In this document: piece by piece, positions 2,679 to 28,032 of the stretch
Layout: every line of letters starts with the position of its first letter
Numbering within the stretch: position 1 is the stretch's first letter
From: Hyalangium ruber
GTDB taxonomy: Bacteria > Myxococcota > Myxococcia > Myxococcales > Myxococcaceae
Direction of reading: 5' to 3'
DNA length: 64,000 bases
Assembly (NCBI RefSeq): GCF_034259325.1
Contig: NZ_JAXIVS010000010.1
Location: 62,001-126,000 of the forward strand
The notes under the pieces: generated by a model
Databases searched by the model: none
Told to the model about the DNA's origin: nothing
The model's input: only the letters and a program-made list of their open reading frames with translations
Translations under genes and position numbers: made by a program

Positions 2679-3464
2679 TCAGGCGCCGCGACCGAGTCCC
2701 AGGCGGATGGCGCGCTCCACGGGGGAGTAGGCGCCATCCTCGCGATGAAGCTGAAACGGCTGAGCGGAAAGGAGCGGCGGCTGGGCCATGAAGCGCGGCC
2801 GGGTGCCGCGGTGCGGCTGGGCCGCGTGGACCAGGAAGGGATGACAGAGGTAGACGGTGCCTGCCTCTCCCGTGGCCAGCGCGACCGGGCGCTCCGCTGT
2901 CGTGTCGAGCCGCTGCGCCACCTCCATGAACGTCAACCCCGCCTCGCCCTCCGGCTCGAGCAGTCGGGCAATGTCCAGGTGGGAGCCCACTCGGATTCGG
3001 GTCGGCGCGTCGTCCTCGCCTACGTCCGAGAACAAGAAGAGCATCAACAGGGCGCGGTCTCGCGAGGCCACATTCGCCCGCCAGGAGAAGTAGGAGCTCG
3101 GGTCTTCTCCCGGGAAGCTGACGTCGATGTGCCACCCGTCATCCCCCGGAGCGTCGGGGCTCGGGAAGCGGATGGGAAACGTGCCGAGATCGCCGCGAGG
3201 CAGCCAGTACCCCGGCCCCACCAGCTCGTTGAAGGCGGCATGCAGCCGAGGGGTGTTCACCGCGCGGCGGAACGGCTCCTGTCCCTGGTAGCCCAGCCGG
3301 ACGACGGCTTGGGTCCATGTCTTCGGGTCGCCCGGCTCGCACCCCGTGCCACGCCAGAGGAGCTCGCGGCCTTCATCCGCCAGCTCCCGGGGAAAGGCGT
3401 GCTCGAGCCGGAGGAAGCCCTGCTCGATGAACTGGCTGATCTGCGCATCCGAGAGTTCCGCCAT
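2679..3464 (-). CDS. Phytanoyl-CoA dioxygenase (PhyH) family protein
   Basis: A 261-residue Fe(II)/2-oxoglutarate-dependent oxygenase of the PhyH family. The first two iron ligands are in WHIDVSF (His112, Asp114). The distal His is in HPFLVHAAQ (His208 or His213), followed by Arg222, which would bind 2-oxoglutarate. The N-terminal half has the usual 'FIEQGFLRLEHAFP' opening of the family. Such enzymes hydroxylate fatty acyl chains, ectoine or secondary metabolites; the substrate is not evident. It begins four bases after the stop of the MATE pump gene, and its Shine-Dalgarno GGAGG lies within the end of that gene, so the two form an operon. A link to export of a hydroxylated small molecule is an inference. 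Confidence 0.88.
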   Translation of the reverse strand: MAELSDAQISQFIEQGFLRLEHAFPRELADEGRELLWRGTGCEPGDPKTWTQAVVRLGYQGQEPFRRAVNTPRLHAAFNELVGPGYWLPRGDLGTFPIRFPSPDAPGDDGWHIDVSFPGEDPSSYFSWRANVASRDRALLMLFLFSDVGEDDAPTRIRVGSHLDIARLLEPEGEAGLTFMEVAQRLDTTAERPVALATGEAGTVYLCHPFLVHAAQPHRGTRPRFMAQPPLLSAQPFQLHREDGAYSPVERAIRLGLGRGA

Positions 3465-3468
3465 CGTC

Positions 3469-4845
3469 TCATGCCTCCAGGGGGCGTAAGGTGCCCGCGC
3501 TCAAGCGGTGGAAGCGCCACAGCAGGGCGAGCGCCACGGAGATGAGGCCCCCGCACAGGCCCCACCAGATTCCCACGATGCCCTGGTTCAGCCCGAAGCC
3601 CAGCGCCAGCGAGAGCGGCAGGCCAATGCCGTAGTGCCCCACCATGTTGGCGAGGAAGGTGAAGCGCGTCTCCCCCGCCCCGCGCAGCACGCCAGCGCCC
3701 ACGCCCTGCACCCCGTCGAACACCTGGAAGACGGAGCTGACGATGAGCAGCGGCACCACCAGCGGCACCACGTCCGGCTGCGCGCCGGCCAGGTCCGCCA
3801 GCGTCCGCGGGAAGAGGGCGAACACCAGTGCCGACAGCGCCATGAAGCCGGCGCCCCCCGCGAAGGCGATGAAGCCGCTGAGCCGCGCCTGGGGCGTGTT
3901 GTGCGCCCCCACCGCCCAGCCCACACGCACGCTGCCCGCGCTGCCAATGCCCAGGGCGATGGTGAAGGAGAGGCTCGCATAGGAGATGGCGATCTGGTGT
4001 GCCCCCATGCTCGCCGGGCCCAGCCTGAAGGCCAACGCGGCGGCGAGCGCGAACACGCCGATCTCCGCCGTGAGGTGGGCGCCGATGGGAATGCCGACCC
4101 GCGCGGCCTGCTTGAGGTCCGCCCCCACCGGGCGGCGCACGGGGAGCCCTCCCGTGAAGGAGATGGAGCGTACCGCGCTCAGGATGATTCCGAGCTGCAG
4201 CAGGGTACACAGCAACGTGGCCAGCGCCGCACCCTCGGCGCCCATGGCGGGGATGCGCCGCAGCGGGCCGAAGCCCTCGGGCAGGATGCCGCCGCCGAAC
4301 ACGAGCAGGATGTCGGCGCCCAGGTTGAAGACGTTGGCCACCACCGTGGCCACCACCAAGGCCCGGGTGCTCGCCGCCGACTGCAGGTAGGAGCGCACCA
4401 TGAGGAAGGCCAGCATCGGCACGAGGCTGGGCGCGCGCCACAGCAGGTAGGCGCGCGTATCCGTCAGGTCCGCCTCCGCATATCCAACGAACGGCAGCAG
4501 GCTGGGAAGCGCCAGCAGCCCCCCCGCCAACACCACTCCCGCGAAGAGCGACATCCACCCGCCCTGCCACAACAGCGCCCGGGCCCGAGAGGAGTTCCGG
4601 GCTCCGAAGGCCTGCGACATGAGCGGGTCGAACCCCATCATCAGCCCCATGCCGAAGCCGCTGACGGCGAAGAAGAGGGCGTTGGCCAGGCCCACCGCGG
4701 CGAGCGCCGAGGTGCCCGCCCTGGCCACCACCAGCGTGTCGACCAGGCCCATGAGTGCCTGACCGCCCTGGGCGATGGCGATGGGGATGGCGAGCCTCAG
4801 CAGCTCGCGAAACTCCTCGCGAGGGGACTTCACGACGGTAGACAT
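3469..4845 (-). CDS. MATE family efflux transporter
   Basis: A 458-residue inner-membrane protein with about twelve hydrophobic segments in two homologous halves, the size and layout of NorM/DinF-type multidrug and toxin extruders. The first helices contain the family's opening pattern (AIPIAIAQGGQALMGLVDT), and the second half repeats it (GIPIGAHLTAEIGVFA). These carriers export drugs or metabolites in exchange for Na+ or H+. The start at ATG 4845 has no strong Shine-Dalgarno sequence. The gene is directly followed by the PhyH-like gene four bases downstream. A hairpin at 4932-4965 lies upstream and belongs to the next gene, not to this one. Confidence 0.92.
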   Translation of the reverse strand: MSTVVKSPREEFRELLRLAIPIAIAQGGQALMGLVDTLVVARAGTSALAAVGLANALFFAVSGFGMGLMMGFDPLMSQAFGARNSSRARALLWQGGWMSLFAGVVLAGGLLALPSLLPFVGYAEADLTDTRAYLLWRAPSLVPMLAFLMVRSYLQSAASTRALVVATVVANVFNLGADILLVFGGGILPEGFGPLRRIPAMGAEGAALATLLCTLLQLGIILSAVRSISFTGGLPVRRPVGADLKQAARVGIPIGAHLTAEIGVFALAAALAFRLGPASMGAHQIAISYASLSFTIALGIGSAGSVRVGWAVGAHNTPQARLSGFIAFAGGAGFMALSALVFALFPRTLADLAGAQPDVVPLVVPLLIVSSVFQVFDGVQGVGAGVLRGAGETRFTFLANMVGHYGIGLPLSLALGFGLNQGIVGIWWGLCGGLISVALALLWRFHRLSAGTLRPLEA

Positions 4846-4923
4846 GGGCGAGCCGGCCTATAGCGTCTTCTGGCGCGGAATGCGCCTGGAAGACGACGGC
4901 CGACAGCTGTCCACCTTGACGGA

Positions 4924-4967
4924 CAAAAAAACGGCCGGCCCGTCCCCCCGAGGACGGACCGGCCGGC
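4924..4967 (-). terminator. Intrinsic terminator of the beta-propeller gene
   Basis: The stem pairs 4952-4965 with 4932-4945 (14 positions, one mismatch, loop of six). Read on the minus strand, it is followed by seven T (4925-4931 are all A on the plus strand). It lies 29 bases downstream of the propeller gene's stop and before the divergent promoter region of the MATE gene. Confidence 0.85.
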
Positions 4968-4995
4968 CCTGCACCGAAGCCCGAGCGGGCTCCGG

Positions 4996-7140
4996 CTACG
5001 GAGTGAAGCTTGGCTGGAAGGACGTGCTGGCCAGCGGCACCTGCAGGTTGTCCACGTGGGCCACGCGCACGCCCGCGTCGCTGATGGCGTAAACGTAGTC
5101 ATCGGCCATCACGCTGCGGCGCACGTTGGGCGTCCAGTACCAGGACCAGCCCCGGTAGCTATGCACCTGGTACTGGTCCGCCACGGAGATGGAGCCCAGC
5201 GGGGTGAAGCCCGTGGTGGTGTCCACCCGGAACACCTTCAGCTCGCTGCGGAAGCCGCTCCAGTAGTCCGGGCTGGGGGTGTAGTCCGAGAAGGGGATGG
5301 CCAGCAGCCCCTTGGCCGGGAAGTAGTTGAAGGCCTTGTGCTCGTAGAGCGCGTCGCTCCAGCCGTAGGCGGTGCCCACCACCTGCGTGAAGGTCTCCTG
5401 GGGGTTGGCCAGGTTGGACACGTCGAACATCGACAGCTTCACCGCGCGCGGGCTCGGGTCCGAAGGGTTCTCCGGCACGTGCATGCCGATGGTGATGAGG
5501 TGGCTGTCATCCAACGGGTGAATGTAGGTGGAGAAGCCCGGCACCTTCAGCTCGCCCACCTTGCGTGGATTCTCGGGGTTGGACAGGTCGAAGGTGAAGA
5601 GCGGATCCACCTGCCGGAAGGTGACGACGTAGCCCTTGTTGCCAATGAAGCGCGCGCTGAAGATGCGCTCACCCTTGGCCAGCTCCTCGCTCTGGCCCGC
5701 CTTCCGCAGGAAGCCGTCCCGCTCTCGGAAGGTGGTGAGGCGGTTGGTCGTCTCCGCGGTGCCCCAGGGGTTCTCCTCGGTACGCCGCCACGTGCTCAAA
5801 GTGGTGGCCACGCGCAGCACGCCCTCGTGCTCGTCCATGCTGAACTGGTTGAGCAGGTACCCGTCCACCCAGCCGCTGCCGGCGTAGCGCGTCACGCCCG
5901 GCTCGCGGATGTCGAACTTGTGCAGGTACGTGTAGTCCCGCTGCCCGTCCTCCGGCCACCACCACCAGTGGCGGCTGGCCATGTAGAGGGCGTCATGGCT
6001 CATGTACAGCTCGCCCGGCTCGGCCACCAGGCTGGTGCGGCGCACGGTGGACTCCTGCGCTCCGGTGTCCAGGTTCAGCGTGGCCACGGTGACGAAGCCC
6101 AGCTTGGCCGGCGTGTTGCTGCGGTGGAAGTCGCGGCAGTCATAGCCCACCTCCACCCGGGTGCCGTCCGGGCGCTTGCGCCAGCCCTTCGGCAGCCACT
6201 GGGCCAGCGAGCGGTCGCGGATGACCTGCTCGTTCTGGTCCATCAGCGCATCCACTGCCTTCTGCAGCCGCGCCTTGTCCTTCCAGAGATCCGGCTCGTA
6301 ATCAGGCCACCAGCGCAGGCCGTCGGGGTAGCGGAAGTTGTCGTTGAGCACCAGCCGCACCGTGCCCGCCGTGCGGCGCGCGTTGGAGTAGCTGCCCGGC
6401 AGGTAGAGCTCATCCACCACCTGCGGCGAGGCCAGGTCGGCCACGTTCACCACCGTCACCTTGGTGGCGTTGCTGCCGTAGTAGCCGTAGCCGCCACAGC
6501 TCACGGGCGAGCACGGCGCGTCCATGCCTCCCCCCGGCTTGCTGCCACCGCTGCCCTGCTCCTGGTAGGTGACGGCGGAGAAGATGACGACGCGGTCCTG
6601 CTCGGCGAGGAACATCTGCTGCGGCCAACCCTCGAGCGTCAGGCTGCTCATGGCCTGGAGCGACTCGGCGGGCCAGGAGCGGTGCAGGTACAGCTTGTTG
6701 CCGGAGATGACGAAGATGCGCGTGCCGTCGTTCTTCACGAAGTCCGCCTCGTCCACCCCCTTCACCTGGTTGTTGGTGTCGGTGTAGTCGTTCGGCTTGC
6801 CACCCGGAGCGCCCGCGCCGCTGTCCTGGTTGGGGGGCGCGCCTGGCATGCCGGGAGCGCCGGCCTCGGGCATCCCGCCGTCATCGACGGGTATGCCACC
6901 GCCCCGGTCCCAGTAATCCATCATCCGCTTCTGCCAGGAGACCTGCGCGCGCATGTCGAGCACCGCGGTGTCCTCGATATAGGACTCCAGGTCCTCGCAC
7001 GTGTCGAAGCTCTGCAGCCGCGCCTGCGTCTGCAGCGGCATGTTCCCCGGAAGGCCCTGCTGCTCCGGCCCGGTCTTGTCACTGTCACACCCCGCCACCA
7101 CCAGGGCCAACCCAAGCCCTCCGAATCGCATCCACTTCAT
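4996..7140 (-). CDS. Secreted beta-propeller lipoprotein (PF09826/COG4880-like)
   Basis: A 714-residue protein starting at ATG 7140 with a good GGAGG site eight bases upstream. A lipoprotein signal (LVVAGC) is followed by a Pro/Gly-rich linker. The segment GVDEADFVKNDG is the hallmark opening of the 'beta propeller domain' family (PF09826), whose members are secreted proteins with C-terminal blades distantly related to WD-40. The rest has blade-like repeats with Trp- and Tyr-rich strands and paired Cys (CSPVSCGG). The likely location is the outer membrane or cell surface. Function is unknown in the family. A strong intrinsic terminator follows the gene, so it is the end of its transcript. Confidence 0.85.
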   Translation of the reverse strand: MKWMRFGGLGLALVVAGCDSDKTGPEQQGLPGNMPLQTQARLQSFDTCEDLESYIEDTAVLDMRAQVSWQKRMMDYWDRGGGIPVDDGGMPEAGAPGMPGAPPNQDSGAGAPGGKPNDYTDTNNQVKGVDEADFVKNDGTRIFVISGNKLYLHRSWPAESLQAMSSLTLEGWPQQMFLAEQDRVVIFSAVTYQEQGSGGSKPGGGMDAPCSPVSCGGYGYYGSNATKVTVVNVADLASPQVVDELYLPGSYSNARRTAGTVRLVLNDNFRYPDGLRWWPDYEPDLWKDKARLQKAVDALMDQNEQVIRDRSLAQWLPKGWRKRPDGTRVEVGYDCRDFHRSNTPAKLGFVTVATLNLDTGAQESTVRRTSLVAEPGELYMSHDALYMASRHWWWWPEDGQRDYTYLHKFDIREPGVTRYAGSGWVDGYLLNQFSMDEHEGVLRVATTLSTWRRTEENPWGTAETTNRLTTFRERDGFLRKAGQSEELAKGERIFSARFIGNKGYVVTFRQVDPLFTFDLSNPENPRKVGELKVPGFSTYIHPLDDSHLITIGMHVPENPSDPSPRAVKLSMFDVSNLANPQETFTQVVGTAYGWSDALYEHKAFNYFPAKGLLAIPFSDYTPSPDYWSGFRSELKVFRVDTTTGFTPLGSISVADQYQVHSYRGWSWYWTPNVRRSVMADDYVYAISDAGVRVAHVDNLQVPLASTSFQPSFTP

Positions 7141-21121: not shown

Positions 21122-23110
21122 ATGTCCGTCAAACTGAACCCGCCTTCTCCCAGCTCGCCGCGGCGAAGCTCGGACACCCAGGCGCCCCAGAAGAACGAAG
21201 TCACCCACCCCCTGGCCCGCCTCGGCCAGGGCCTGCAGCGCGTGGCACAGCAGGTCGACAAGGGCGTGGACCGGCTGGTCGACACCTTCGAGGCGAAGCT
21301 GCCCTCGCTGCCCAACCCCGCGGCGGCCGGCAAGGCCCCATGGGAGGGCATCACCCTCACCGGCAATCCGCTGCAGATCCCGCTCGACAAGCTGCTGAGC
21401 GTGGACCTGAGCCAGGTGCGCAAGGTGCTCGAGCGCGTGGTGCCGCAGAAGATCCGCGACGACGAGGCCAAGCAGCTGGTGGGGCAGACGCAGAACTTCC
21501 GGGAGACGCTGTCCAAGGTGCGCGCGCTGGCCACGGAGCTGGAGCTGGTGCCCCCCAGCCACCCGCGCCACGCCGAGGTGAAGGCGGCGCTGGCCAAGGC
21601 GGAAGGGGAGCTCACCTCCAAGTACGGCTACACGCGGACCACCGCGCCGAAGCCGGGCGCCATGTGGGTGGACCCTCAGTTCATGGGCAAGGAGCTGCCC
21701 GGCGGGCAGATGTCCGCCTCGCGGCTGCCCACGGGCACGCCGGTGACGAAGCCGCCCGAGCCGCTGGACTTCCTCTTCGGCGGCAAGCCGGACGGGGCCG
21801 CGCAGGCCAAGGCGTACCAGCAGGAGGTGGCCGCGCGCCGCGCCGAGCTGGGCATGCCGGTACAGGATGGCAAGCCGATCGGCGTCCACATGTCCCTGCA
21901 GGGCGGTGGCGGCAAGGGCAAGCGCTACGCGGCGATGCTCTCGGAGATGCAGCAGCTGGGCGTGGTGCCGGTGAGCCTGACGGGCACCTCGGCAGGCTCC
22001 ATCGCGGCGGCGTTCGCGGCCACGGGCGCCTCGCCCAAGCAGATTGAAGACATCGCCAAGGACCCTCGGCTGCAGCAGCTCTACGACTTCGACCTGGACA
22101 TGAAGGATGGCGGACTGCTCAACGGCAACAACGCCTATGAGCTGTTCGACCAGAAGCTGCGTGAGCTGACCGGCATCAAGGACCGCCCCGTCACCTTCGC
22201 GGACCTGAAGGTGCCGCTGCAGCTGGTGGCCGCCAAGGCGTACGACAGCGCGGCGCCCAACGGCTTCCCCACCAACAAGGACCGCATCTTCGTCTTCAGC
22301 CAGGAGACGACGCCGGACACCCCGGTGGCGCTGGCGATGCGCGCCTCCATGGCGATTCCGGGCGTGTTCGAGCCGGTGCAGGTGGTGGACCCCACCACGG
22401 GCCGCAGCATCCACCTGACCGATGGTGGCTCGCTGGACAACCTCCCCATGGGCTACGGCAAGCACAACCTGCCGCAGATCGGCGCGGCGCTGGTGAGCCC
22501 GGACGAGAACCACCCGTCCAACGCCGTCGGCACGGCGAAGCCGCTGCCCACCGGCCAGCTCGACACCACCAACCTGCTGTGGAGCGCCGTCAACGGCTAC
22601 ACGTTCCTCAAGGACAACGCGACGGGCGCCGCCGACTTCCGGGACCGCACGCAGCCGGGCGCCAACCAGTTCATGCTGAGCCTGCCCACGTGGAACTTGG
22701 ACAACCCCAAGCAGAGCAACAGCATGCTGGGCTTCGGCTACGACGCGAAGGTGGACCCCGTCCTCGACACGCAGACGCGCCAGGTGACGCGCGACTTCCT
22801 CAAGGACTTCATGGACGACATGCGCGTACCGGGCTCGCGCGGCGCCAACGTCACCACGTCCATTCCGCAGAACCTGCGCTTCAACGAGCAGGTGACGGTG
22901 AACGGGCAGAACTACCAGATCTCCTATAATGGTGGAGACAACCTGGTGGCCCACAACACATCCACCGGCAAGAAGTCGGACCTGAAGCTGGGCCAGAAGA
23001 AGATCGAGGCCATGTACCTGGACCACCTGGCCTACGGCGACCTCAAGGCGCAGCTGGCCCACGCGGTGACCAACCCCCGCAGCGTCAAGCCGGACTGGCT
23101 GCCCTTCTAG
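21122..23110 (+). CDS. Patatin-like phospholipase
   Basis: A 662-residue protein with an N-terminal region of about 250 residues that is helical and has no signal peptide. It then has a patatin core: the glycine-rich oxyanion loop LQGGGGKGKR, the nucleophile in GTSAG (Ser290), and the catalytic Asp in LTDGGSLDNLP (Asp434). Patatins are serine-aspartate lipid acyl hydrolases acting on phospholipids. It is long for the family, and the extra N-terminal third carries DUF-like helices with Lys and Asp. It may be secreted without a signal peptide or act in the cell. The neighbours do not point to a pathway. The gene is clearly intact. Confidence 0.88.
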   Translation: MSVKLNPPSPSSPRRSSDTQAPQKNEVTHPLARLGQGLQRVAQQVDKGVDRLVDTFEAKLPSLPNPAAAGKAPWEGITLTGNPLQIPLDKLLSVDLSQVRKVLERVVPQKIRDDEAKQLVGQTQNFRETLSKVRALATELELVPPSHPRHAEVKAALAKAEGELTSKYGYTRTTAPKPGAMWVDPQFMGKELPGGQMSASRLPTGTPVTKPPEPLDFLFGGKPDGAAQAKAYQQEVAARRAELGMPVQDGKPIGVHMSLQGGGGKGKRYAAMLSEMQQLGVVPVSLTGTSAGSIAAAFAATGASPKQIEDIAKDPRLQQLYDFDLDMKDGGLLNGNNAYELFDQKLRELTGIKDRPVTFADLKVPLQLVAAKAYDSAAPNGFPTNKDRIFVFSQETTPDTPVALAMRASMAIPGVFEPVQVVDPTTGRSIHLTDGGSLDNLPMGYGKHNLPQIGAALVSPDENHPSNAVGTAKPLPTGQLDTTNLLWSAVNGYTFLKDNATGAADFRDRTQPGANQFMLSLPTWNLDNPKQSNSMLGFGYDAKVDPVLDTQTRQVTRDFLKDFMDDMRVPGSRGANVTTSIPQNLRFNEQVTVNGQNYQISYNGGDNLVAHNTSTGKKSDLKLGQKKIEAMYLDHLAYGDLKAQLAHAVTNPRSVKPDWLPF

Positions 23111-23156: not shown

Positions 23157-24587
23157 ATGGCCACGCCCCCTCCCAGGAGCCGCGCAGCAATGGAGCAGAA
23201 GCAGGAGTCCACCGTCCGCAACCTCTCCCACGGAGGCAGCGATGATGCCTCCGTGCTGCAACGGCACCTGGTCTCCGAAGCCAACGCGGCGCTGCGCAAA
23301 GGCGCCCTCGCCGCGCTCATGCCCGCAGTGACCGGCGCGACGGTCATCCCCGTCCTGATGTGGGCGGGGCTCATCCAGGGCATGCACGTGCCGGTGCTGT
23401 TCTGCTTGCTGTGCATCGTGTCGTGCAGCGCGCTGTACCTGCTGGCGCGCCGCGAGCGGGTGCATGGGTGGAGGGCCTGGGCCGTGCTGCTGCCCTTCGT
23501 GTCCCTGCCCACCGTCTTCTTCCTGATGAGCCACGCGCTCATGCCCTCGGGCGCCGCCACGTTCATCGCCGGCCCCATCTCGCACCTCTACTTCGTCACC
23601 CTGGCCGTCGCGGGCTTCCTCTTCGACTTCCGGCTCTCGGCGGTGGCCAGCGTGGTGGCCGCCGTCAGCTACCAGGGCTGCTTCCTGCTCGCTCGGAACG
23701 GGCTGCGGACCATCTCCGCGCCGGACCCGATGCTGGTGCAGGAGTTCACCAGCACCTCCATCAACAGCTTCAAGTCGCTGATGATCTTCTTCGGTGGGAT
23801 TACCCTGGCGGCGCTCGCCGTGGTGACGCGGCGGCTGGTGGAGCGCGTGCTGCGAGAGGAGCGCCAGAAGAACCTTTTGAGTCGGCTCTTCGGGCAGTAC
23901 GTCAGCGAGGAGGTCAAGGAACGCCTGCTCAAGGACCCCCACGCCCAGAGCGGCGAGCGCAAGGAGGTGGTGGTCCTCTTCTCGGATCTGCGCGGCTTCA
24001 CCGAGTACAGCGAGACCGCCGCTCCCGAGGAGATCGTCGAGCGCCTCAACGCCTACTTCGATGCGATGGTGGGCGCCATCACCGAGCATGGCGGCATCAT
24101 CGACAAGTTCATCGGGGATGCGGTGATGGCGACCTTCGGAGGGCTGGTGCCGCTGGAGAACCCGAGCGCCTCCGCGCTGGAGGCGGCGCAGCAGATGCGC
24201 CAGCGGCTGCACGCGCTCAACACGCGCTGGTGGCGGGAGGGGCGTACGGCCTTCGACACCGGCATCGGCCTGCACGTGGGCGAGGTGGTGCTGGGCGCCA
24301 TCGGCAGCGAGCAGCGCAAGGACTTCACCGTCATCGGCGATGCCGTCAACACCGCCTCGCGCGTGGAGTCGCTGACGAAGCAGTACGGCCACCCCATCCT
24401 CGTCACCAGCGCGCTGTATTCCCGGCTGCCCGCCGCGTTGCAGGCCCGCTGCCGGGCTCTGGGAACAGCCCAGGTCAAGGGCCGCCGGGCGGCGTTGGAG
24501 CTGTACGGCCTGCCCGATGCCCACTCGGCGCCGGAGGTGCGCGGAGGGGAGGAGGCTCCACACCCCCGTGACACCCTGGTGACATAG
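23157..24587 (+). CDS. Membrane-bound class III adenylate cyclase
   Basis: A 476-residue protein. Residues 45-225 hold about six membrane segments, followed by a short coiled stretch and a class III cyclase domain from residue 265. Both metal-binding Asp are present (Asp277 in FSDLRGFT and Asp321 in DKFIGDAV). The purine-specifying Lys317 and the Asp389 of KDFTVIG are typical of ATP as substrate. The transition-state residues Asn398 and Arg402 lie in VNTASRVES. It should make cAMP at the inner membrane. Two proteins with cyclic-nucleotide-binding domains are encoded at 38162-40645 and may be receptors; that link is only inference. It is 68 bases upstream of the TIGR04222-like gene and might be co-transcribed with it. 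Confidence 0.92.
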   Translation: MATPPPRSRAAMEQKQESTVRNLSHGGSDDASVLQRHLVSEANAALRKGALAALMPAVTGATVIPVLMWAGLIQGMHVPVLFCLLCIVSCSALYLLARRERVHGWRAWAVLLPFVSLPTVFFLMSHALMPSGAATFIAGPISHLYFVTLAVAGFLFDFRLSAVASVVAAVSYQGCFLLARNGLRTISAPDPMLVQEFTSTSINSFKSLMIFFGGITLAALAVVTRRLVERVLREERQKNLLSRLFGQYVSEEVKERLLKDPHAQSGERKEVVVLFSDLRGFTEYSETAAPEEIVERLNAYFDAMVGAITEHGGIIDKFIGDAVMATFGGLVPLENPSASALEAAQQMRQRLHALNTRWWREGRTAFDTGIGLHVGEVVLGAIGSEQRKDFTVIGDAVNTASRVESLTKQYGHPILVTSALYSRLPAALQARCRALGTAQVKGRRAALELYGLPDAHSAPEVRGGEEAPHPRDTLVT

Positions 24588-24655
24588 GAGTGACAATGGG
24601 CCCGCGTGACGGCGGAGGCACGGGCTCCCTTCTATGCTCCCCTCACGGAGAGACC

Positions 24656-25642
24656 ATGAACCCTCTGGATTGGAGCGGCACGCAGTTCCTCCTGATGTAT
24701 GTGCCTCTGATGGTGGTGGGCTACGTGGTGGCGTGGGGACTGCGTCGGCCCTCCCAGCAGTCCGACGCGGCTCCGGACGCCATTGCCCAACGCCTGGAGC
24801 CCTACGAGGTCGCCCTGCTCAAGGGCTTCAAGACGTTTCGTGACGCGGTGACCGCCTCGCTCGTCCACCGCGGGGTGTTCCTGATCCAGGACGAGGAGCT
24901 GTTCCCCAGCACCAAGCCTCCCTCGGGCATGACACGCCTGGAGCAGAGCGTGCATCGGGCCGCGCGTGGGCGGAGCCTGGCGCGCTCCGAGCTGGCCAAC
25001 ATCCTCCAGACCGAAGCGGAGCCGCTGCGAGAGCAGCTCGTCCGCAAGGGCCTGCTGGTGGACGCGAAGGAGGCTCACGAGAAGCGGCGCGTGCCGGCCA
25101 TCGTGTTCGGCGCCGTGCTGGCCCTGGGCGCCGCGAAGCTCGCCCTGGGGCTGGTGAGGGACCGGCCCGTGGGCATCCTGTTCTTCCTCCTCATCCTGGG
25201 CCTCATCGGCTTCGTGAGCATCTTCAAGATGAAGATCGGCCGGACTCCCCTGGGGGACAAGACGCTGAAAAGCCTCGTGTCCAAGCACGAGCCCCTGCGC
25301 ACCACCGCCGCCACCGAGGGGAGCCTGCCCACGCTGAGCGGCACGGAGGTGGCGCTGGCGGTGGCCCTCTTTGGCACCTCGGCCATGGCCGCCAGCCAGA
25401 TGGAACCCTTGCGGCGGTACCTGCAGCCCGCGAGCACGGGAGGCGCCAGCGTGGACAGTGGCGCGGACGGCTGCGGCACTGACTACGACAGTGACACCAG
25501 CCTCTTCAGCAGCAGTAGCAGCTGTAGCAGCAGCAGTGACTCCAGCAGCAGCTGTAGCAGCAGCAGCAGTGACTCCAGCAGCAGCTGTAGCAGCAGCAGC
25601 AGCAGTTGCGGAGGCTGCAGCAGCGGAGGGAGCAGCGATTGA
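24656..25642 (+). CDS. TIGR04222-like membrane protein with Ser/Cys tail
   Basis: A 328-residue protein starting at ATG 24656. The first 30 residues (MNPLDWSGTQFLLMYVPL) form the N-terminal signature of the TIGR04222 membrane-protein family together with one membrane span. Two further spans lie at about 147-190. The last 46 residues are nearly all Ser and Cys: Cys290, 300, 311, 318 and 321 sit in runs of Ser with a few Asp, and Cys273 lies just before. The family is known, from memory, for a simple Gly/Cys-rich tail of unknown function. Here the stop overlaps the start of a DUF692 oxidase gene (TTGA at 25639-25642). The tail is therefore a candidate substrate for peptide modification. The role is unknown. 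Confidence 0.85.
   Translation: MNPLDWSGTQFLLMYVPLMVVGYVVAWGLRRPSQQSDAAPDAIAQRLEPYEVALLKGFKTFRDAVTASLVHRGVFLIQDEELFPSTKPPSGMTRLEQSVHRAARGRSLARSELANILQTEAEPLREQLVRKGLLVDAKEAHEKRRVPAIVFGAVLALGAAKLALGLVRDRPVGILFFLLILGLIGFVSIFKMKIGRTPLGDKTLKSLVSKHEPLRTTAATEGSLPTLSGTEVALAVALFGTSAMAASQMEPLRRYLQPASTGGASVDSGADGCGTDYDSDTSLFSSSSSCSSSSDSSSSCSSSSSDSSSSCSSSSSSCGGCSSGGSSD
25515..25605 (+). repeat. Tandem AGC/TGT repeat in the Ser/Cys tail
   Basis: The tail coding region is built from a unit of about 30 to 33 bases that encodes S4-5 D S4 C. It occurs twice in near-identical form (first from about 25528, second from about 25558) and is followed by AGC repeats ending in TTGC. The Asp in the middle and the Cys at the end recur (Cys300, Cys311). 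Such repeats are prone to slippage, so length variation between strains would be expected. Confidence 0.75.
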
Positions 25643-26526
25643 AGCCGCTGTCGGGGGTGGGCCTCGGCTGGCGGCGACAGCTCGCGCACCGCATCGATCA
25701 GGACGCGGGGCTGGGCTTCGTGGAGGTGCTGGCCGAGCACCTGAACCCCACCGCGCCGCTGCCCGTGCCGCTCTTGCGCCTGAAGGAGCGCGGTGTCCCC
25801 GTGGTGCTGCACGCGGTCTCGCTGAGCCTGGGCGGCGCGGAGCCTCCGGAGGCGCGGCGCCTGGACACACTGGCGCGCCTCGCCGAGCGGCTGGGCGCGG
25901 TGTGTGTGAGCGAGCACGTGGCCTTCGTGCGCGCGGGCGGCATCGAGTCCGGTCACCTGCTGCCCGTGCCTCGCGGCGACGAGGCGCTCGACATCCTCGC
26001 GGAGAACGTACGCCTGGCCCAGGCGGCACTGCCCGTCCCCCTGGCGCTGGAGAACATCGCCACCCTGTTCGAGTGGCCCTCGCCCGCCTTCACGGAGGCG
26101 CAGTTCCTCTCCGGGCTGCTCTCGCGCACCAGCGCCCTGCTGCTGTTGGATGTGGCCAACCTGCACGCCAACGCGCTCAACCATGGCACCGACGCGGCGG
26201 CCGTGCTCTCCGCCGTGCCACGCGAGCGGCTGGCCTATGTCCACGTCGCTGGCGGCATGCGGCACGGAGGCCTGTACCACGACACCCACGCGCACCCGGT
26301 GCCGGAGGGCCCGCTGGCTCTGCTGGAAGCCCTCGCGGCGCGCCTGGGCCCCGTGCCGGCCCTGCTGGAGCGTGACGACCACTTCCCCCCTCCGGAGGAG
26401 CTGAGCGCGGAGCTCCAGGCCATCTCGGCGGCCCTGGCGCGCGGCGTGGCGACTTGGGAGGCTGGAACAACTCGCGCGCCTGGGCACGCGGTGGCGGCTC
26501 CCGGACTCACGGAGGCCCGGCCATGA
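25639..26526 (+). CDS. DUF692 multinuclear non-haem iron oxidase (MNIO)
   Basis: A 295-residue TIM-barrel protein of the DUF692/MNIO family, relatives of which (MbnB, TglH) use a multi-iron centre to oxidise Cys in ribosomal peptides. All expected metal ligands can be seen: His58, His93, Glu138, Asp171, His176, His202, Asp215, His217 and Glu244. TTG 25639 overlaps the previous stop (TTGA), with GGAGG at 25625-25629. The protein ends with a short extra Pro/Ala/Thr tail. Its stop overlaps the next start (ATGA at 26523-26526). These overlaps indicate translational coupling and a functional complex. The most likely substrate is the Ser/Cys tail of the preceding protein, but this has not been shown. 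Confidence 0.9.
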   Translation: MKPLSGVGLGWRRQLAHRIDQDAGLGFVEVLAEHLNPTAPLPVPLLRLKERGVPVVLHAVSLSLGGAEPPEARRLDTLARLAERLGAVCVSEHVAFVRAGGIESGHLLPVPRGDEALDILAENVRLAQAALPVPLALENIATLFEWPSPAFTEAQFLSGLLSRTSALLLLDVANLHANALNHGTDAAAVLSAVPRERLAYVHVAGGMRHGGLYHDTHAHPVPEGPLALLEALAARLGPVPALLERDDHFPPPEELSAELQAISAALARGVATWEAGTTRAPGHAVAAPGLTEARP

Positions 26527-27002
26527 GCACGCGGGAGGCGCGGGAGCGGCTGGCCGAGGCACAAGCAGCCCTGGCGCGAGCGCTCGCCCAGGGCACACCG
26601 GTTCCTCCTGGCTTCGACGCGGAGCGCGTCCACGAGGCGGCGCGCTCGCTGCTGGCCAAGCGCCGTCGGAGCGTCGAGCGCACGTGGCCCCGTCTCGCCG
26701 CCGCGCTCGGAGACTCCTTCCGCGCACGGTTCGATGCGTGGGCCCGGGAGAACCCCATGGCCCTGGAGACCAGCGCCCTGGCCGACGGAGGCCGGTTCGC
26801 GCAGGCGCTGCTCACGGTGAGCCCGTTCCCCGAGGACGCCCGCGAGGAGCTGCTCGCCTTCGAGTTGCGCTATCGCCTCACCGAACAGGGCCTCGTGGCG
26901 AGGCGAGGCTTTACACTGCGAACCTCACGGCTGGGCGCCTCGCGAGTGCTTGCCGCTCGGCTGCCGGGCGGGCGAGTGCTTCGACTGCGGCTCCCCTTCT
27001 GA
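26523..27002 (+). CDS. MNIO partner protein (SCO6045-like)
   Basis: A 159-residue basic protein starting at ATG 26523, whose ATGA overlaps the DUF692 stop. Residues 1-85 are helical with an ARALAQGTPVPPGFD segment and KRRRSVERTWPRL. The pattern is recalled from a partner domain found beside or fused to DUF692 in actinomycetes (SCO6045-like) and, more remotely, from the MbnC/HvfC partners that present the substrate to MNIO enzymes. Residues 85-159 are a beta-rich half. A typical DUF2063 domain is not obvious. It probably recruits the peptide to the oxidase; this is by analogy only. It is the last gene of the trio and lies 112 bases before the next start. Confidence 0.7.
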   Translation: MSTREARERLAEAQAALARALAQGTPVPPGFDAERVHEAARSLLAKRRRSVERTWPRLAAALGDSFRARFDAWARENPMALETSALADGGRFAQALLTVSPFPEDAREELLAFELRYRLTEQGLVARRGFTLRTSRLGASRVLAARLPGGRVLRLRLPF

Positions 27003-27114: not shown

Positions 27115-28032
27115 ATGGCGGATTCGTTCTGGGAGCAGCAGCAGCAACCACGCGAGCGGGCATCACGGATGCCTTGGGTGGTGGCGGTGCTGGTGGTGCT
27201 CCTGCTGGGAGTGTTCGTCTATTTCGGTCTGGGAGCGTACCGCGCGGCCCAGGCGCGCATCGCCACCGCCGAGTCCGAAGCCCTGAAGGCCCACGAACGA
27301 GCCAAGGCCGCCGAGCTCGCGCACAAGGCGCTGGAAGAGAAGTTGGCGGCGCTCGACGCGGAGCGGACGCGGCTGTCCACCGAGCGCGACCAGCTCTCCA
27401 CGGAGCGAGATCAGCTCTCCACGGAGCGTGACCAGCTCTCCCAGGCGGTGCAAGAGAAGGAGGCGGAGCTGGCCCGCCTCAAGGCCACGTACACGGACCT
27501 GGAGGAAAAGATGAAGGCGGAGATCGCCGAGGGCGAGATCCGCCTGTCCCAGGCCGAGGGCCGCATCCAGGTGGACCTGGTGGACAAGATCCTCTTCGAC
27601 TCGGGCGAGGCCAAGCTCACCGACCGCGGCGCCGAGGTGCTCTCGCGCCTGGGCACGGTGCTCGTGGGCGTGGAGGGCCGCAGCATCCAGGTGTCGGGCC
27701 ACACGGATGACAGCCCTCCCTCGTCGCGGCTGGCGGCCACCTTCCCCACCAACTGGGAGCTGTCGGTGGCGCGCGCGGTGAACGTGGTGCGCTTCCTCCA
27801 GGAGAAGGCGAAGGTGCCGGCGCGTCGGCTGGTGGCGGCGGGCTACGGGGACACGCACCCGGTGGCCAGCAACGCCACCCCCAAGAGCCGCGCGCGCAAC
27901 CGGCGCATCGAGATCCTCCTGATTCCGGACCTGCCCGCTGCCGCCTCCAAGGCCGCGGAGCTCACGAACACCGCGCCGACCGAGGAGAAGAAGTCGGAGA
28001 CGGCCTCCGCGCCGAAGCCCGGAGGCCCTTGA
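27115..28032 (+). CDS. OmpA-family coiled-coil protein
   Basis: A 305-residue protein with one membrane anchor at residues 20-45, a coiled coil (about 45-150) and an OmpA/MotB-like domain (155-285). The coiled coil includes three perfect or near-perfect copies of STERDQL, a seven-residue heptad encoded by three 21-base repeats at 27376-27438. The OmpA domain has SGHTDDSPP, NWELSVARAVNV and NRRIEILL, including the peptidoglycan-binding Asp and Arg. It likely connects the inner membrane to the cell wall. It resembles the OmpA-like protein at 15618. Its stop is followed by a perfect stem at 28032-28049. Confidence 0.87.
   Translation: MADSFWEQQQQPRERASRMPWVVAVLVVLLLGVFVYFGLGAYRAAQARIATAESEALKAHERAKAAELAHKALEEKLAALDAERTRLSTERDQLSTERDQLSTERDQLSQAVQEKEAELARLKATYTDLEEKMKAEIAEGEIRLSQAEGRIQVDLVDKILFDSGEAKLTDRGAEVLSRLGTVLVGVEGRSIQVSGHTDDSPPSSRLAATFPTNWELSVARAVNVVRFLQEKAKVPARRLVAAGYGDTHPVASNATPKSRARNRRIEILLIPDLPAAASKAAELTNTAPTEEKKSETASAPKPGGP
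27376..27438 (+). repeat. Three 21-base tandem repeats encoding STERDQL
   Basis: Units 27376-27396, 27397-27417 and 27418-27438 each encode Ser-Thr-Glu-Arg-Asp-Gln-Leu, with only a few synonymous differences. They extend a heptad coiled coil by whole turns and could vary in number between strains. Confidence 0.8.

Follow-up and report, generated by a model that had tools for sequence, protein, structure and literature searches.

We analysed a stretch of 64,000 nucleotides from the soil myxobacterium Hyalangium ruber (contig NZ_JAXIVS010000010.1, positions 62,001 to 126,000; in the following the window) with a focus on three overlapping genes on its forward strand. They encode a TIGR04222 membrane protein with a tail rich in serine and cysteine (P0001), an enzyme of the multinuclear non-haem iron-dependent oxidase family (MNIO; P0002) and a small third protein (P0003). 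The genes and the features of P0001 are listed below, with model confidence given as predicted local distance difference test score (pLDDT).

24656-25642, plus strand: P0001, TIGR04222-domain membrane protein with a Ser/Cys tail, proposed MNIO substrate; 328 residues, TIGR04222 at 126.7 bits (cut-off 43)
24677-24745, plus strand: P0001 transmembrane helix 1, residues 8-30; helix in the AlphaFold2 model, peak hydropathy 2.04, N-terminus probably outside
24773-25063, plus strand: P0001 predicted cytosolic winged-helix-like domain, first half, residues 40-136; helices 40-46, 49-56 and 58-71 and strands 75-78 and 81-84 in the model
25064-25228, plus strand: P0001 transmembrane hairpin, residues 137-191; model helices 137-167 and 173-191, peak hydropathy 2.25 and 2.87; missing from five soluble homologues
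25229-25429, plus strand: P0001 soluble domain, second half, residues 192-258; broken helices 198-210, 212-219, 229-239, 241-244 and 247-256, peak hydropathy 1.38
25430-25639, plus strand: P0001 disordered Ser/Cys tail, residues 259-328, with all six Cys; pLDDT below 50 over most of 262-317
25607-25618, plus strand: P0001 Cys318-Gly-Gly-Cys321 motif, which recurs at the C-termini of Cys-tailed relatives
25639-26526, plus strand: P0002, MNIO (DUF692, MbnB_TglH_ChrH) enzyme; 295 residues, PF05114 at 259.4 bits (cut-off 25)
26523-27002, plus strand: P0003, MNIO partner with a DUF2063/MbnC-like fold (PME-type 2 sensu Antoine et al. 2025, PMC12452194); 159 residues, assigned by predicted fold and by fusion to MNIO

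P0001 and P0002 overlap through TTGA, with the TTG inside the overlap serving as the P0002 start, and P0002 and P0003 overlap through ATGA, which suggests translational coupling of the trio. The original prediction, made from the DNA sequence alone, had given these overlaps and their coordinates exactly. It had also listed Cys290, 300, 311, 318 and 321 together with Cys273, which are indeed the sole cysteines of P0001, and had called the third gene basic, in agreement with 28 Lys and Arg against 18 Asp and Glu in P0003. Only one of 198 open frames of at least 150 residues in the window, namely P0001, has five or more Cys and 40 or more Ser or Gly in its last 70 residues, so the composition of this tail is not due to chance. 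In the H. ruber genome we found one TIGR04222 gene and four MNIO genes. Of the three MNIO genes outside the window (L002, L004 and L005), one scores 343 bits and the other two, at 109 and 102 bits, are divergent. Among named sequences, the nearest MNIO to P0002 that we found is from Hyalangium versicolor (86% in the best segment).

P0002 aligned to the DUF692 structures 3bww and 8hci and has all nine iron-site residues that we checked (H58, H93, E138, D171, N174, H202, D215, H217 and E244), in keeping with the metal ligands noted from the sequence. The same nine residues were kept in 79 of 79 MNIOs adjoining Cys-tailed proteins and in 10 of 10 MNIOs adjoining TIGR04222 proteins that lack tail cysteines. 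We take these nine to be the iron ligands, partly on the basis of the 3bww alignment and partly as an assumption of our own. Residues named for HvfB in PMC13419390 (N175, D242 and H244) are a further basis for the assignment. P0002 scored below the cut-offs of the subtype models, with 193.4 bits against the BufB equivalog NF050167 (cut-off 310), 160.3 bits against the HvfB-type NF003818 (cut-off 360) and 32 bits against the MbnB model (cut-off 325).

P0003 had no Pfam or NCBIfam match, DUF2063 (PF09836) included, and weak DUF2063 matches were found in seven of 54 P0003 relatives (best E 0.0002). Its predicted structure is of high confidence (mean pLDDT 94.9). The best solved match by Foldseek is MbnC in the MbnABC complex (7dz9_C, E 0.015, probability 0.98); an unrelated chain comes second at a probability of just 0.18, followed by NGO1945 and then a further MbnC. 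Among 999 chains compared with VIA-align, the top four were NGO1945 and three MbnC chains (Z 7.5, 6.1, 5.6 and 5.2; next 3.8), and since Z below 8 is weak by itself, the argument is that all four top rows are MNIO partners. The alignment to the NGO1945 structure 3dee covered 113 residues (Z 7.5, root mean square deviation 3.6). Furthermore, we found the partner domain fused to MNIO in 25 frames from 20 distinct loci. Nineteen of these loci were from the genomes we call Streptomyces-like (G407 family; the label is inferred, the best named match of L208 being Streptomyces sp. BHT-5-2) and one was from Kutzneria buriramensis (G206, the genome of L072). With only about 110 residues, the partner of many actinobacterial loci has no room for the second domain seen in NGO1945. 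Searching the PDB with partner sequence profiles retrieved no MNIO partner. Predicted fold and natural fusion thus support the assignment of P0003 as an MNIO partner. P0003 follows the MNIO gene, is without the DUF2063 signature and has a modelled fold like NGO1945/TglI, as described for PME-type 2. According to PMC13419390, the active, mixed-valent state of the iron depends on the HvfC partner, and by analogy P0003 might have a similar role in the iron state of P0002.

P0001 aligned to positions 1-228 of the 229-position TIGR04222 profile, with the low-complexity C-terminal region adjoining the domain. Its AlphaFold2 model, built on 71 sequences, had a mean pLDDT of 83.6 and was mostly above 90 outside the tail. 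In the 71-member alignment Cys accounted for 290 of 2861 tail residues and for 77 of 18336 core residues, an enrichment that is partly due to selection, as 67 of the members are Cys-tailed. For a wider tail survey we excluded C-termini truncated where a stretch stops, loci of DUF2207 type (L136-L154) and proteins with an incomplete domain, and the 281 readable C-termini gave 202 unique ones; 150 of the 202 were Cys-tailed, defined as at least two tail Cys. A C-terminal CGG was present in 144 of these 150 proteins and CGGC in 56, a recurrence that the original prediction had not noted. The residue following a tail Cys was Gly in 75% and Ser in 22% of cases, compared with a tail background of 34% Gly and 23% Ser.

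The evidence for a link between tail and enzyme comes from the genomic neighborhoods. We searched the genome collection with MNIO peptide motifs only and obtained 46 loci from Myxococcota, Actinomycetota, Planctomycetota, Chloroflexi, Dormibacterota and Melainabacteria/Cyanobacteria. Since MNIOs linked to TIGR04222 were the source of the motifs, the result concerns that MNIO subgroup, and about ten of the 46 loci lie on the same contigs as genomes already sampled and are not independent. A P0003-like domain was present in all 46 loci and TIGR04222 in 42, and 41 of these 42 had a copy with at least two tail Cys. Among the four loci without TIGR04222, two (L055 and L066) start at a contig end less than 60 bases from the MNIO gene, and two (L082 and L095, the latter with a partial MNIO) are true misses in the stretch. 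The trio alone was conserved in all groups and further families were limited to narrow groups, for which reason the wider genomic context gives no function. When viewed from the tail, 136 of the 150 Cys-tailed proteins were linked to an MNIO. For 120 the MNIO lay in the fetched stretch, always on the same strand and at most 2.6 kb away, and for 16 more within about 4 kb by coordinates (L156, L160, L167, L169, L170, L175, L177, L179, L180 and L182). By locus, 97 of 110 had a Cys tail, a biased figure since some regions were chosen on purpose as suspected exceptions. In ten Streptomyces-like genomes without MNIO, taken from the 11 that were TIGR04222-positive (G686 was left out), none of 11 TIGR04222 loci had at least two tail Cys. 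By genome, TIGR04222 and MNIO co-occurred in 150 Pseudonocardiaceae genomes (77 both, 5 TIGR04222 only, 2 MNIO only, 66 neither; G199 family, labelled after Kutzneria) with a Fisher value of 8e-34 and in 101 Streptomyces-like genomes (67 both, 11 TIGR04222 only, 6 MNIO only, 17 neither) with 1e-7. At one locus (L041:3530-8996) four TIGR04222 genes stand in a row before MNIO and partner, with one copy lacking a Cys tail.

At some loci a different enzyme seems to replace the MNIO, although two loci are few. In L047 (G038, a genome 98% complete in which no MNIO was found), a radical S-adenosylmethionine (SAM)/SPASM gene at 2806-4179 with PF04055 and PF13186 over cut-off is followed by a nucleotidyltransferase-domain gene (4207-4947) and an overlapping Cys-tailed gene (4944-5792). 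In L045 (G163; 3808-5897) the Cys-tailed gene is interrupted and runs to 4887, with a possible start of a related radical-SAM gene at 4884; no MNIO was seen at this locus. The nearest NCBIfam models of the radical-SAM gene are those of the ACGX system and the SbtM maturases, all below cut-off (best 133 bits of 400). A gene of the radical-SAM/SPASM peptide maturase kind (ACGX, SbtM and sactipeptide types) adjoins the Cys-tailed genes of L047 and L045, and the window has no such gene. A switch of the modifying enzyme next to an unchanged tail would be expected if the tail is modified. A radical-SAM neighbor of TIGR04222 is not mentioned in the main text of Antoine et al. (PMC12452194), where the phrase occurs only in the references. 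The nucleotidyltransferase-domain gene (PF01909, 22.6 bits, cut-off 21) is an immediate neighbor of TIGR04222 genes at further loci too, namely L010 and L017 (692-1462), whose stretches contain a partner but no MNIO, and L048 and L081, which do have an MNIO. L010 (814-2229) and L017 (1462-2832) encode TIGR04222 and partner with no MNIO between them, and both genomes have a full trio elsewhere. Divergent from the TIGR04222/radical-SAM pair in L045 (5819-7673) we noted, by eye, an ArsR-type regulator and permease-like and small thioredoxin-like frames, which are possibly a hint to metal stress.

From these data we consider it probable, at roughly 70%, that the trio is a self-contained unit for the modification of a protein tail. 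The data show its gene content, family membership, conservation, association and predicted folds, from which we infer substrate, topology, chemistry and metal role. The tail had been named as the MNIO substrate in the original prediction and this is still the likeliest assignment, since tail Cys and MNIO travel together across several phyla and the third gene appears to be a partner.

A number of points weigh against this reading. Most loci were the best-scoring ones and not a random sample. Both Fisher values for co-occurrence ignore shared ancestry. In Myxococcales co-occurrence says little, because MNIOs of other kinds are found in 107 of 145 genomes. Ten Cys-tailed copies are unlinked and have their MNIO elsewhere in the genome (L010, L017, L037-L040, L191 and L244-L246), and three are in genomes in which no MNIO was found (L047/G038, L239/G569 and L240/G576), with no recognised modifier near L239 or L240; for L045, the last of these 14 copies, the absence of an MNIO holds for the locus. 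A Foldseek search of the P0001 model against the PDB gave 134 rows, none with E of 0.001 or below. Finally, in 12 Streptomyces-like loci (L208-L214 and L216-L220) an MNIO stands with only Cys-less TIGR04222, and the iron site is intact in the ten of these MNIOs that could be aligned; therefore the MNIO there has another substrate or acts in trans. Tail Cys are accordingly not always present with DUF692, a check that had been proposed together with the prediction. A Cys-less tail in a conserved trio had been named beforehand as evidence against tail modification. It does occur in one lineage, the MNIOs concerned being mainly of one clade, yet five of these 12 genomes hold a Cys-bearing soluble member elsewhere.

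These 12 loci and the Cys-tailed copies in the three MNIO-less genomes would also fit an MNIO that acts elsewhere, on another peptide or the folded domain, with the Cys tail being an unmodified metal-binding or redox tail that shares the operon. We regard this as unlikely. Across the 46 loci the trio is accompanied by no further conserved gene that carries Cys, Cys tails are lacking at all 11 loci of the MNIO-less Streptomyces-like genomes, and a different class of peptide-modifying enzyme adjoins two Cys-tailed genes without MNIO.

The soluble members just mentioned bear on the side of the membrane on which the tail resides. These forms (L275-L279, 194-229 residues) are without transmembrane helix 1 and hairpin and retain the domain and a Gly-rich C-terminus with a single Cys, for example GSGCGGGGGGD. 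None was found among the matches listed for the other seven of the 12 genomes, and no MNIO was present in the fetched stretches around L275-L279. A profile from which the membrane segments had been deleted matched four of the five near end to end (for example profile 8-155 of 166 to residues 5-153) and L276 only to position 119 of 166. All 19-residue Kyte-Doolittle windows of the soluble forms were at or below 1.79, compared with 2.04, 2.25 and 2.87 in the membrane helices of P0001. In the 71 relatives the mean number of Lys and Arg is 0.1 in residues 1-9, 17.0 in 30-145 and 6.2 in 192-226; the positive charges lie on the domain side, which places domain 30-145 inside. Starting from an outside N-terminus, three membrane passes then bring the tail to the inside as well. 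Model, charges and soluble homologues together give us fairly good confidence that the tail of P0001 is cytosolic, contrary to its published placement in the periplasm and to the display on the membrane that the original prediction had envisaged.

Antoine et al. (PMC12452194) put the tails in the periplasm, which weighs against a cytosolic unit, and predicted this from transmembrane topology and AlphaFold2 models. A tail modified before crossing the membrane would make P0001 a membrane-tethered relative of the bufferins, and bufferins and oxazolins are exported. Segment 229-256 is moderately hydrophobic (mean of about 1.3 in the 71 relatives). In P0001, however, the model shows a series of short helices here, at a pLDDT mostly above 90, and hydropathy peaks at only 1.38. 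The soluble homologues, which have no membrane helix otherwise, retain a counterpart of the segment, so that it belongs to the soluble domain. Moreover, no transporter, peptidase or chaperone gene accompanied the trio beyond narrow groups in the 46 loci. A periplasmic tail therefore appears improbable to us.

It is hardly credible that the tail Cys have no role and arose as a side effect of repeated Ser codons (AGC to TGC) within a low-complexity linker, as might be suspected from the 29 AGC and 6 AGT beside 3 TGC and 3 TGT codons in the P0001 tail, because Gly-based tails elsewhere keep Cys and the C-terminal CGG and because Cys content tracks MNIO presence.

For a tail-modification unit with a cytosolic tail the following mechanism could be envisaged. 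P0001 would act as a membrane-anchored carrier, in which the N-out helix and the hairpin hold the winged-helix-like domain at the cytosolic face and the disordered Ser/Gly/Cys tail hangs from this domain in the cytosol. P0003 would bind P0002 and set its iron cluster, and the P0001 domain would dock both at the membrane face, so that the disordered tail could thread its Cys one by one into the P0002 site. P0002 would then oxidise the tail Cys, most likely at Cys-Gly sites, and by analogy with other MNIO systems the product would most likely be a thiooxazole or an oxazolone/thioamide-type group. The modified tail would probably bind metal at the inner membrane face, with copper as the best guess from bufferins and methanobactin. 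More tentatively, and on balance with some doubt, TIGR04222 proteins might be general carriers, at the membrane face and in some cases soluble, which present a cytosolic Cys tail by means of a GPP34/DUF2207-like winged-helix domain, serving as an integral recognition element, to interchangeable enzymes, in most lineages an MNIO with an MbnC-like partner and in others a radical-SAM/SPASM enzyme.

If the trio is such a unit, a large and widespread enzyme family that is known from the synthesis of small metal-binding peptides would also act on tails of resident membrane proteins, which would be an unexplored kind of modification. With the tail in the cytosol, access of a cytosolic oxidase to its substrate is no longer puzzling, and a metal store, sensor or chaperone at the inner face is suggested. 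If the general carrier holds, tail modification with swappable chemistry would be a cellular system and not a natural-product pathway, and the published reading would have put the tail on the wrong side of the membrane. The soluble homologues, with about 200 residues, one tail Cys and no membrane part, offer an easy system for the chemistry.

The original prediction had known of no assigned function for this type of substrate. The same proposal, gene family and partner class are, however, contained in Antoine et al. (PMC12452194). That study describes more than 3,500 TIGR04222 proteins, of which subsets with Cys-rich C-terminal segments are proposed as MNIO substrates. It introduces PME-type 2 as the name of the partner class and reports such a gene in at least 10% of TIGR04222 clusters. 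More than a quarter of TIGR04222 proteins are reported there to be without C-proximal Cys and a third of TIGR04222 genomes to be without MNIO. The clusters described have the same three gene classes as the window, and the same role as substrate is proposed for the Ser/Gly/Cys tail; our data differ in that the partner is present in 46 of 46 MNIO loci and also occurs fused to MNIO, and in that we argue for a cytosolic tail. The central idea is thus already published, and our analysis confirms the observation and partly supports the interpretation. New are the argument for a cytosolic topology via soluble homologues, the partner by fold and fusion, the two-way test of Cys and MNIO with its exceptions and the apparent replacement by radical-SAM. 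In the open-access literature searched, two papers mention TIGR04222, and no experiment on TIGR04222-tail modification was found.

Bufferins and oxazolins (BufB, HvfABC) share the MNIO superfamily, a partner with DUF2063-like fold and a Cys substrate with the trio, but their substrate is a secreted peptide whereas P0001 is a transmembrane protein. The methanobactin system MbnABC resembles the trio in that the fold of P0003 is similar to MbnC (7dz9, 7tcr and 7fc0), and differs in that MbnA is a short free peptide and P0002 is far below the MbnB cut-off. With 328 residues and a membrane anchor, P0001 is not a short ribosomal peptide with a leader and is thus unlike a precursor of ribosomally synthesised and post-translationally modified peptides (RiPPs).

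The TIGR04222 domain itself shows likeness to two families. Sub-threshold TIGR04222 matches in other actinobacteria are DUF2207 proteins (PF20990 at E 4e-44 to 4e-33 in the three tested), and DUF2207 reached a profile-profile probability of 97. The tails of DUF2207 proteins are Gly/Ser-rich like those of TIGR04222 proteins, and several end in GGGSW, but they are without a Cys cluster and the proteins have an extra N-terminal domain. PF20990 (DUF2207_C) did not match P0001 and matched 26 of 71 relatives at E up to 1 (best 1e-7). The second likeness is to GPP34. VIA-align rows of GOLPH3/Vps74 span residues 41-258 of P0001 (up to 163 aligned, Z 6.3-7.1, root mean square deviation 5.7-6.1), and as these rows rank 17th, 19th, 28th and 37th, with helical bundles higher and Z under the safe level of the tool, they are a lead only. 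Profile-profile comparison with GPP34 gave a probability of 83 over 79 columns, and five shuffles and two unrelated profiles gave at most 0.1. On the other hand, PF05719 did not match P0001, it matched one of 71 relatives (E 0.0023), and the profile missed the soluble homologues. A search of the TIGR04222 profile against the PDB gave Gly-rich construct linkers and weak winged-helix regulators, the best of the latter at E 0.008. To view the domain as a RiPP recognition element is speculation. No paper naming DUF2207 and GPP34 together was found in the open-access literature searched. A plasmid search with P0001 gave one weak match, which was judged irrelevant.

In the window, a membrane adenylate/guanylate cyclase-like gene (23157-24587, named by eye) lies upstream of P0001 and ends 68 bases before it, and a promoter-like match (9 of 12) is located at 24568-24597, ahead of P0001. 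The further flanks, also named by eye, are a patatin-like frame upstream (21122-23110) and an OmpA-like frame downstream (about 27115-28032).

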